A program made the position numbers and the translations under genes. From NCBI GenBank assembly GCA_900314825.1, contig OMWS01000004.1, forward strand, positions 1 to 64,000: a stretch of 64,000 bases of DNA, read 5' to 3'. Source of the stretch: an uncultured Veillonellaceae bacterium. Its GTDB lineage: Bacteria > Bacillota > Negativicutes > Selenomonadales > Selenomonadaceae. Positions 10,449 to 58,058 of this stretch are shown here, in pieces; position 1 is the first letter of the stretch; each line of letters begins with the position of its first letter. The notes beneath the pieces are model-generated. The model saw only the letters and a program-made list of their open reading frames with translations, was not told the DNA's origin and did no database searches.

Positions 10449-10498
10449 GGCTCTCCCCCTGGGAGAGCTGGCGCGCGTAGCGCGACTGAGAGGGTACG
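10449..10498 (+). repeat. Dispersed palindromic repeat, copy 3 (GCTGGCGC type), left arm of an inverted pair
   Basis: It reads GGCTCTCCCCCTGGGAGAGC, then TGGCGCGCGTAGCGCGACTGA, then GAGGGTA. It faces copy 4 (10609-10655), and the two enclose a 19-bp perfect hairpin. Its outer edge AGGGTACGAGGGTGCGAT matches the inverted edge of copy 4 in 17 of 18 bases. Confidence 0.8.
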
Positions 10499-10522
10499 AG
10501 GGTGCGATTTGTTTCAAATACA

Positions 10523-10581
10523 AAGAAGTCTTCAAAGCATCGCGGTTTAACTCAAACGACCTGATGCTTTGAAGACTTCTT
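10523..10581 (+). repeat. 19-bp perfect stem-loop inside an inverted repeat pair
   Basis: AAGAAGTCTTCAAAGCATC (10523-10541) pairs exactly with 10563-10581, leaving a 21-base loop. A diverged copy of the same stem is at 23079-23131, where a run of T follows and it can act as a terminator. Here only a short T-rich tail follows on the plus side. It sits between copies 3 and 4 of the dispersed repeat and looks like the core of a composite element. Confidence 0.8.
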
Positions 10582-10608
10582 GTTTGTTGTTCAGCTATCG
10601 CACCCTAG

Positions 10609-10655
10609 TACCCTTTCCACCGCTAACGCGGTCCCCCTTTCCCAAAGGGAAAGGC
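10609..10655 (-). repeat. Dispersed palindromic repeat, copy 4, right arm of an inverted pair
   Basis: It reads TACCCTTTCCACCGC-TAA-CGCGGTCCCCCTTTCCC, then AAAGGGAAAGGCTG. It is inverted relative to copies 2 and 3. Its central hairpin is of the ACCGC type, so the two arms of this pair belong to different subtypes. Confidence 0.8.
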
Positions 10656-18622: not shown

Positions 18623-18669
18623 TACGCCTCCCCCTTTGGGGGAGGTGCCCCGAAGGGGCGGAGAGGGTA
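18623..18669 (+). repeat. Dispersed palindromic repeat, copy 6, left arm of an inverted pair
   Basis: TACGCCTCCCCCTTTGGGGG, AGGTGCCCCGAAGGGGCGG and AGAGGGT. Its edge GAGAGGGTAATGCCGT is matched in inverted form (15 of 16) by the edge of copy 7. Between them lies CGATTC-TATCGTTC-GAATCG (18691-18710). Confidence 0.8.
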
Positions 18670-18721
18670 ATGCCGTAACAAATCCAGCGATTCTATCGTT
18701 CGAATCGTGAATATCCAAACG

Positions 18722-18775
18722 GCGTTACCCTCTCAGTCGCCCTGCGGGCGCCAGCTCCCCCAAAGGGGGAGCCTA
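18722..18775 (-). repeat. Dispersed palindromic repeat, copy 7, right arm of an inverted pair
   Basis: GCGTTACCCTCTCAGTCGCC, CTGCGGGCGCCAG, then CTCCCCCAAAGGGGGAG and CCTAAAG. The centre is of the GTCGC/GCGC subtype, while its partner copy 6 is of the CCCCGAAGGGG subtype. It ends about 35 bases before the comM start. Confidence 0.8.
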
Positions 18776-28320: not shown

Positions 28321-28357
28321 GCAAGCGCCCGTGGCACCCTCTGCATGCATGACAAAA

Positions 28358-28405
28358 AATCCGGCGGAAATGGATGTGCGTTCCATTTCCGCCGGATTCT
28401 TTTTT
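28358..28405 (+). terminator. Bidirectional terminator between the TPR genes and the minus-strand operon
   Basis: AATCCGGCGGAAATGGA pairs exactly (17 bp) with TCCATTTCCGCCGGATT around a 7-base loop. T-runs lie on both strands, so it ends both convergent transcripts. Confidence 0.92.
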
Positions 28406-38547: not shown

Positions 38548-39426
38548 ATGGAAAAGAAGCTCATCATCATCGGCGCGGGGCCGGCCGGGATTTCGGCGGC
38601 GCTCTATGCGCGGCGCGCGGGACTTGCGGTCACGGTCGTGACAAAGGGGCCGGGCGCACTCGCGAAAGCTGAGGGCATTGAAAATTATTATGGCTTCGCA
38701 GAGCCGGTCACGGGCGCGGAGCTCGAGCGGCGCGGCATCGAGGGCGCGAAGCGCCTCGGCGTGGAGTTCGTCACGGGCGAAGTGCTGCAGATCGGGTTCA
38801 ATGATACGTTTGATGGTTATAAAGTGGAAGGGGCGGGATTCACGCTCGAAGCGCCGAGCCTCGTCCTTGCGGCTGGCGCCTCGCGCAAGACGCTTGCCGT
38901 GCCCGGGATCGCAGACTTCGAGGGCAAGGGCGTGAGCTACTGTGCCGTCTGCGATGCCTTTTTTTATCGGCAGAAGCGCGTCGCCGTCATTGGCGCGGGC
39001 GCGTATGCGCTGCACGAAGCGGAAGCCCTCGCGCCGCATGCAAGCGAGGTGCACATTCTCACGAATGGCGAAACGCCAACGGCCACATTCCCAGAGTCGA
39101 TGATCGTTCACACGGAAAAAGTTGCGGCCATCGTCGGCGACGATCGCGTTACAGGCGTCGAGTTCGCGGATGGCACGACGCTTTCCATCGACGGCGTCTT
39201 CCTCGCCATCGGCACGGCGGGCAGCACGGCGCTCGCGCGCAAGCTCGGCATCTTGCTCGACGGTGCAAACATCAAAGTCGATGAGACGATGGCGACGAAC
39301 GTGCCGGGCGTCTTCGCCGCCGGCGACTGCACGGGCGGCTTGCTGCAAGTAGCGAAAGCCGTGTATGAAGGCGCAAAAGCGGGGCTGGCGGCTGTGAAAT
39401 ATGTGCGTGAAAAAACAAAAGCATGA
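38548..39426 (+). CDS. Thioredoxin reductase-like FAD/NAD(P) oxidoreductase
   Basis: A 292-residue flavoprotein with IIGAGPAGISAALYARRAG near the start, a redox CxxC in SYCAVCDAFFYRQK, a second Rossmann motif (VAVIGAGAYALHEAEAL, with the last Gly replaced), and the C-terminal FAD motif GVFAAGDCTGG. The NADPH-binding GxGxxA-HRRR signature of true TrxB is not evident, so its electron donor is uncertain. The ATG at 38548 follows GCAGGTGG. It is the last gene before a terminator. Confidence 0.85.
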   Translation: MEKKLIIIGAGPAGISAALYARRAGLAVTVVTKGPGALAKAEGIENYYGFAEPVTGAELERRGIEGAKRLGVEFVTGEVLQIGFNDTFDGYKVEGAGFTLEAPSLVLAAGASRKTLAVPGIADFEGKGVSYCAVCDAFFYRQKRVAVIGAGAYALHEAEALAPHASEVHILTNGETPTATFPESMIVHTEKVAAIVGDDRVTGVEFADGTTLSIDGVFLAIGTAGSTALARKLGILLDGANIKVDETMATNVPGVFAAGDCTGGLLQVAKAVYEGAKAGLAAVKYVREKTKA

Positions 39427-39473
39427 AAAAAGAGTTGCGAAGCGTCATGTTTGACGCAGCGCAACTCTTTTTT
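39426..39473 (+). terminator. Bidirectional terminator
   Basis: AAAAAAGAGTTGCG pairs with CGCAACTCTTTTTT, enclosing an inner GCGTC/GACGC stem. It serves the flavoprotein gene and the convergent Cys-rich peptide gene. Confidence 0.9.
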
Positions 39474-39483
39474 CGTGCGATCA

Positions 39484-57109: not shown

Positions 57110-57125
57110 ATCAATGAGGTTGTTC

Positions 57126-58058
57126 ATGAAGAAGATTGAAAGTGCAACGAATCCGAAAATCAAGCTAGCGGCAGGCCTCGCAAAGCGCAGCCAGCGCGAG
57201 AAGACAGGACTGTTCGTCGCCGAGGGCGTGCGGCTCGCGGAGATGGCGGCGGCTTCGGATTGGGACATCGCGTATGCGCTTGTGACGGAGCGGGCGGCGG
57301 ACGAGGAACGCGTGGAGAACATTCTTGCACAGCTGGAAGCGCGAGAGACGCCGGCGTTTCTTGTACCCGAACGCGTGTATGCGAAAGCGAGCGGGACGGA
57401 AACGCCGCAAGGAATTTTGTTGGTTGTGCGGCAGAAGAAATTGTTACTTGAGGAACTCGCGGAGTTTTGTTCTCGCTCGCAGTCGGCTGGGGGCTTTCCC
57501 CCGAAAAAAGTACGCCCTGCGGGTGTAAAAATTTTCGGGGAAAAGCCCCCAGCCTCCCGAAGTGATAACATTAACGCGGATGCAATGAAGATGTCACCAT
57601 GCGTCATTGTTCTTGATCGTGTGCAAGATCCGGGAAATCTCGGCACGATCCTGCGCACAGCGGATGCGGCTGGCATGGATGGCGTGATCCTCCTCAAGGG
57701 AACGGTCGATGCGTTCAGCCCGAAAGTCGTGCGCGCGGCGATGGGGTCGCTCTTCCATATGCCCATCGTCATGGACGTGGAAGAGGACGCATTTCTGGAA
57801 TTCGTCGCTTCAAAAAAACTTTCGCTGTGCGCGACGGCGCTCGATGCGACGGCGAGGCCGCATTTTGCAGCGGATTTTTGCCGGCCGTCGGCCATCGTGT
57901 TCGGCAACGAGGGACGCGGCGTGTCCGCGCAAATCTTGGAACGTGCGGAAAAAATCTTCATTCCGATGTTTGGGGATGCGGAATCTTTGAACGTCGCGGT
58001 ATCGTCGGCGATTGTCCTCTATGAAGCCGTACGGCAGCGGCACGCGCTTAGCGATTGA
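57126..58058 (+). CDS. TrmH/SpoU family RNA methyltransferase with an in-frame palindromic insertion
   Basis: A 310-residue 2'-O-methyltransferase. The N-terminal substrate-binding domain (SATNPKIKLAAGLAKRSQRE) and the SPOUT knot motifs VIVLDRVQDPGNLGTILRTA, AIVFGNEGRGVS and SLNVAVSSAIVLYEAV are intact. The linker between the domains contains SAGGFPPKKVRPAGVKIF, coded by a 70-base near-perfect palindrome inserted in frame (57485-57554). The ATG at 57126 follows GAGG. The gene overlaps the convergent thiamine pyrophosphokinase gene by 11 bases. Target RNA is not predictable. Confidence 0.88.
   Translation: MKKIESATNPKIKLAAGLAKRSQREKTGLFVAEGVRLAEMAAASDWDIAYALVTERAADEERVENILAQLEARETPAFLVPERVYAKASGTETPQGILLVVRQKKLLLEELAEFCSRSQSAGGFPPKKVRPAGVKIFGEKPPASRSDNINADAMKMSPCVIVLDRVQDPGNLGTILRTADAAGMDGVILLKGTVDAFSPKVVRAAMGSLFHMPIVMDVEEDAFLEFVASKKLSLCATALDATARPHFAADFCRPSAIVFGNEGRGVSAQILERAEKIFIPMFGDAESLNVAVSSAIVLYEAVRQRHALSD
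57485..57554 (+). repeat. Palindromic element inside a coding sequence
   Basis: The arms 57485-57507 and 57532-57554 are reverse complements in 22 of 23 bases; the core is GGCTGGGGGCTTT and AAAGCCCCCAGCC. The loop holds a smaller stem (ACGCCC-TGC-GGGTGT). The length is compatible with an open reading frame and adds about 24 residues to the protein linker. Confidence 0.82.

Follow-up and report, generated by a model that had tools for sequence, protein, structure and literature searches.

A genus-specific, probably mobile palindromic element carried in frame by a TrmH-family methyltransferase gene and other protein genes of a Negativicutes genome

Introduction

Rickettsia palindromic elements (RPEs) are described, in the available parts of two reviews, as repeats of about 100 to 150 bp that form a long stem-loop and lie both between genes and, in frame, within unrelated conserved protein genes (PMC2229807, PMC10969869). 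The accessible sections of one review present ERIC as a 127-bp imperfect palindrome of enterobacteria with some in-frame intragenic copies, and the Correia/NEMIS elements of Neisseria as having 24-bp terminal inverted repeats, TA termini, and a target duplication (PMC2229807). REPs are smaller, at 20 to 40 bp in the available text of PMC3733652. In-frame palindromic insertion is already known as a kind, since the accessible parts of the reviews report RPE, ERIC, and Correia copies that lie in frame and refer to cases from Wolbachia and Methanocaldococcus jannaschii (PMC2229807, PMC10969869). What is new here is a genus-wide family with exchangeable interiors and covarying arms, and the presence of several palindrome families in one linker. 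In the literature on palindromic, REP, or miniature inverted-repeat elements of Selenomonas and Negativicutes, within a coverage that included few subscription journals, no such element was found for this clade.

The element analyzed here lies in the window, the whole stretch of 64,000 nucleotides under study. Compared by description rather than by sequence, and as far as the available parts of the sources describe them, it resembles RPEs in its size, its long stem-loop, and its intergenic and in-frame copies. RPEs belong to another phylum, however, which makes descent from them unlikely by taxonomy, and they have a 12-bp terminal inverted repeat where this element has conserved TCGCG(A/G)AG end units. 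In further contrast to RPEs, its arms covary among copies and its interiors are exchangeable (classes A to D). The protein-coding palindromic repeats of Wolbachia and M. jannaschii, likened here by the titles given in PMC2229807, show a similar coding potential. ERIC, in the accessible description, is alike in size, in its imperfect palindrome, and in having some in-frame intragenic copies, but the present element has no TA ends and no detected target duplication and is found in other taxa. The Correia/NEMIS elements are similar as small repeats with longer and shorter forms and with open frames fused in frame, judging from the available text (PMC2229807), whereas neither long terminal repeats nor a duplication was seen here. 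REP/RAYT systems also consist of dispersed hairpins, but two of the genomes carrying the present element have no RAYT.

Results

A palindromic element in the linker of a TrmH-family methyltransferase

The host gene encodes a TrmH/SpoU-family RNA methyltransferase (57114..58058, forward strand; start ATG at 57114 or 57126; 314 aa) with the Pfam domains MRM3-like_sub_bind, SpoU_sub_bind, and SpoU_methylase. The sequence-only reading had described in this gene a palindrome of 70 bases with 22 of 23 arm bases matching, placed in the interdomain linker without breaking the frame, and all of this was borne out. The inverted-repeat search placed the two hairpin arms at 57485..57507 and 57532..57554 (forward strand), each of 23 nt and complementary at 22/23 positions (96%), around a 24-nt spacer (57508..57531, forward strand) in which the strand and consensus folds give an internal loop and an apical stem-loop. 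The inverted repeat sits between the two domains, the Pfam match of the substrate-binding domain extending to residue 104 and that of the SpoU methylase domain beginning at residue 158, and the frame is open from 57114 to 58058. The RNA fold of 57475-57565 reached -55.2 kcal/mol (z = -7.25), and none of 200 dinucleotide shuffles was as stable. Within the window, the exact 13-mer GGCTGGGGGCTTT occurs at the two arms only, a third match having two mismatches.

The insertion proposed in that reading is real, but the size of 70 bases was too small. The alignment of copies revealed conservation well past the palindrome, from a TCGCG(G/A)AG unit on the left to a unit ending in CGCG on the right, and therefore an element of about 125 bp. 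The window holds a complete class A element of 124 bp (57455..57578, forward strand), as given by the copy alignment and by a match to positions 1-126 of 126 of the covariance model R1, which was built from 10 copies of the own genome. It corresponds to residues ~109-150 of TrmH, numbered from 57129. Its left end unit, TCGCG(G/A)AG...TCGC, is conserved among copies (57457..57480, forward strand; alignment and pattern match with 3 mismatches), and its right end unit, CTCCCGAAG...ACGCG, lies at 57555..57578 (forward strand; copy alignment). The window copy scores 134 bits against R1, a value inflated because this copy is among the 10 used to build the model.

TrmH orthologs lack the segment

A TrmH match was found in all 41 genomes searched. 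The alignment comprised 36 orthologs. This search supplied 29 of them, from genomes other than the own one, 11 of these 40 having given no locus; the remaining 7 were taken from a named-record search with 80 loci. Three pairs among the 36 appear to represent one genome entered in two collections. The sequence-only reading would have been refuted had all orthologs carried the segment, but the alignment revealed that it is absent from all 36. A solved structure agrees, the best relative (7qiu) running from 114 to 124 where the query TrmH runs from 101 to 157. Between the QKKL/KTL/KSF position and VLD(R/G), the window protein has 59 residues and the proteins of the congeners G004 (L088) and G005 (L090) have 20, which is exactly 39 residues (117 bp) fewer. 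Relative to these element-free congeners, the ortholog alignment points to a net insertion of 117 bp (39 codons) at 57462..57578 (forward strand), with breakpoints that are estimates, since the flanks have diverged.

The AlphaFold2 model of TrmH (29 sequences; mean pLDDT of 88.3) had values mostly above 90 in the two domains and below 50 for residues 120-151, which are predicted to form a disordered linker between two confident domains. The closest named records by TrmH are metagenome genomes labeled Veillonellaceae or Selenomonas, presumably of rumen origin to judge from their RUG isolate names, which fits the Negativicutes placement.

A repeat family confined to one genus

The genome search for the palindrome that the sequence-only reading had called for found it at both coding and intergenic positions. 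A DNA search of the own genome (G000; 3.36 Mb, 137 contigs) with 57470-57570 retrieved about 12 further copies, with E values down to 4.4e-18, and R1 matched 21 copies with scores of at least 69 bits, of which 10 match by construction as training copies and 11 are independent of the training. Most of these copies are about 115 to 127 bp long and two are about 180 bp; weaker matches on the reverse strand come from reading these palindromes in the opposite direction. A match at C89:31787 (40.7 bits) resembles class D and was excluded from the 21. Another weak match, in contig C90 (22 bits), was rejected as chance, having no element ends and lying in a frame that looks alanyl-tRNA synthetase-like.

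Among 31 genomes (the own genome and 30 relatives), R1 found the element in five, all of one genus: the own genome, G001, G002, G003, and G006. There was no match in G004 and G005, which belong to the same genus. The same five genomes matched among 189 genomes of the family under stricter filters with E values up to 1e-6, that is, 5/7 genomes of this genus and none of the other 29 of the 30 genera. The copies of the other genomes sit at unrelated places.

Nine of the 21 own copies lie within ~11.4 kb (C105:27353-38729 of G000; L073:3354-14730), a region that comprises a NifH-like gene, four nitrogenase component 1-like genes, and hyp genes, with copies both inside and between genes. Identity within this cluster (mean of 66.2%) was similar to that between its copies and those elsewhere (64.1%), and so there is no general sign of local duplication there; the copies of nif-like genes 3 and 4 are 82% alike. 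In several congeners, two class A copies of opposite orientation flank the same gene (L072:2862-4969, L077:3157-5263, and L229:1819-3925), which is probably aspS, next to a putative hisS.

In-frame copies in other genes

The sequence-only reading had likened the insertion in principle to the in-frame RPEs, and the comparison gained ground from further hosts. Of the 21 copies in the own genome, seven are read in frame within recognized proteins, namely TrmH and six others: a MocR-type regulator (GntR/aminotransferase), HypF, and four nitrogenase component 1-like (nif-like) proteins. Clean empty sites were found for 5 of these 7 hosts. G004, which has no R1 match, has the same gene cluster, and its orthologs of HypF and of nif-like 2, 3, and 4 each show a clean empty site; for nif-like 1 the comparison is ambiguous, since an unrelated linker of similar length occupies this place in G004. 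In HypF, the query runs from 407 to 473 where the chain of PDB 3vth runs from 393 to 396. For nif-like 4, the matches in other genomes of the family that come in two segments likewise break at the element. The nif-like 3 insertion has conserved sequence on both sides and does not occupy an obvious interdomain linker. The MocR ortholog of G004 is without the element and R1 had no match in six congener MocR loci, but this case is less clean, because MocR linkers are hypervariable.

The MocR linker of G006 (L347, G006:C22:224-1888) holds other palindromic repeats in frame, and those of L347 and its orthologs L348-L350 differ by congener, as at a hot spot.

Of 62 congener copies examined, inspection by eye accepted only two as genic, both of them class C copies in tandem and in frame in a MutS_V-domain protein of G002 and absent in G004 and G005. 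The long open frames over several other congener copies were judged by eye to be antisense or N-terminal artifacts. In the own genome, long open frames over copies that precede genes which look, from their translations, like aroF, rfbB, cysS, and mutS2 were treated as N-terminal extensions and likewise set aside.

Copies within genes occur in both orientations. TrmH and MocR use a common forward frame, the four nif-like genes the same reverse-strand peptide, and HypF another reverse frame. In a six-frame count, 21/42 frames were open in coding copies versus 31/90 in the other copies (weak C89 copy included), all seven used frames being open, as they must be.

Exchangeable interiors and covarying arms

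The copies of the congeners can be sorted into classes that differ in their interiors but not in their ends: A is the window type, B is ~193 bp, C is ~121 bp, and D is 132-136 bp. The classification was made by script and left 2 of 84 copies unclassed. Related classes have common ends and unpaired motifs and arms that change together. The consensus is a strong hairpin with conserved unpaired motifs, and the outer ends pair through a self-complementary CGCG only. Two own copies, one of them in HypF, hold an extra internal palindrome of a second repeat family.

This second family has the core CTCTTAGCGCTT(T/C)AGCGCTTAGAG, with 63 forward matches in the own genome (at most 3 mismatches; e.g., C105:29921 and C105:33752) and none in the window. 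Of 6 congeners, 5 also have this family, which is nested in two class A copies. A third family of ~150 bp, with CTCCCCCTTTGGGGGAG arms, is represented at 18628-18771 of the window, where it looks intergenic, and by 79 matches in the own genome with both strands counted. The window also contains nested inverted repeats between two genes (10488-10617; arms of 21 and 19 nt) and short strong hairpins at gene ends that resemble terminators (28354-28402 and 39421-39478).

Two-sided changes affected 18 of 27 pairs in class C and 14 of 28 in class A, values reached by none of 500 shuffles in either class. In class C, 95.9% of cells pair (80.4% in shuffles), and 90 cells have two-sided versus 2 one-sided changes, in counts where orthologous congener copies are not independent. 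The alignments were made by sequence (MAFFT) and not fitted to structure, and the structures were derived from the same alignments. The near absence of one-sided changes in class C suggests that the arms may be kept complementary at the level of DNA rather than by selection on RNA; this is suggestive only, because class A shows more one-sided change.

Mobility

A test of 77 of the 84 copies at 24 offsets gave no within-copy excess of target-site duplications (smallest uncorrected P = 0.010). The closest pair of own copies is only 86% identical (median of 66%, weak C89 copy included), and hence no recent movement is seen. A tandem copy found in G002 is missing from G003 except for one end unit, a pattern consistent with insertion as well as with loss between end units. 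Searches of phage and plasmid collections gave no match to the best copy, and an origin from these was set aside on that basis. An exact 21-mer was not found in viral contigs, a weak negative given how strict an exact pattern is. The search for a mobilizer found none.

Discussion

The repeat family, its absence from the orthologs, the in-frame reading, the several independent in-frame hosts, and the covarying arms were all observed directly. An ordinary lineage-specific extension of the linker, with an incidental palindrome, could appeal to the variable length of TrmH linkers among congeners (that of G001 is longer than that of G004). Yet the same 124-bp sequence with conserved ends occurs 20 more times in the genome, mostly outside recognized genes, and folds more stably than all 200 shuffles; the dispersed homologous copies rule out an incidental palindrome, and we give this explanation next to no credit. 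A functional structured RNA (a leader, or a processing or stability element) spread by selection, of which the coding copies would be by-products, accords better with the strong consensus hairpin, its conserved unpaired motifs and covariation, and the many copies directly before or after genes. It is nevertheless improbable, given that the five loci scanned had no Rfam family at the elements, only a T-box and tRNA nearby, that both orientations are found within genes, and that the class C changes are so nearly all two-sided, with fewer G-U steps than RNA helices usually show.

The remaining alternatives invoke known kinds of mobility. Movement by a RAYT (Y1 transposase), as for REPs, would account for palindromic and dispersed copies, and G000, G001, and G002 each have one full Y1_Tnp gene; but Y1_Tnp had no match in G003 and G006 (the latter 99% complete), both rich in copies, and an element of ~125 bp is much larger than REPs, so that we regard this mechanism as very unlikely. 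Alternatively, the element could be a MITE that goes back to an ordinary DDE insertion sequence, the autonomous parent having been lost or gone unrecognized. Size, dispersal, and intergenic bias agree with the available parts of the reviews on such elements (PMC2229807, PMC10969869), against which stand the lack of any terminal inverted repeat beyond the self-complementary CGCG and of target-site duplications in the 77 copies tested. This origin is possible, if on balance doubtful.

We conclude with good confidence that the window copy is a member of a genus-specific family of palindromic elements, non-autonomous and probably mobile, and that it inserted in frame into an ancestral TrmH gene, where it is tolerated because it landed in a flexible linker between two domains. 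The sequences support a protein-coding palindromic element, RPE-like in effect, whose protein insert is predicted from the open frame. It would have moved by a transposition-like insertion, and within genes only insertions with an open frame and a net length divisible by three would survive. The arms may be kept complementary as DNA, by hairpin-templated correction or by recognition of the folded strand, as the nearly always two-sided and Watson-Crick changes of class C suggest.

A wider reading, which we offer tentatively and hold to be rather unlikely as a whole, is that the identity of the element resides in its fold and unpaired motifs rather than in its arm sequence. The arms would drift while a near-perfect DNA palindrome is kept, the interiors would behave as cassettes (classes A to D, and the nested second palindrome family), and a genus-specific enzyme would recognize the folded single strand. 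Protein loops and linkers would then serve as in-frame landing sites for unrelated palindromic elements and, if so, piled-up palindromic elements would build new protein segments in this genus.

In-frame palindromic insertion is a documented but rare route from noncoding mobile DNA to protein. The present family provides a comparative system beyond the obligate intracellular bacteria where the phenomenon was described, with seven such genes in one Negativicutes genome, sister species that lack the element and show empty sites, and several competing palindrome families. Because its arms covary, the family also lends itself to the question of whether selection or DNA repair maintains the palindrome.
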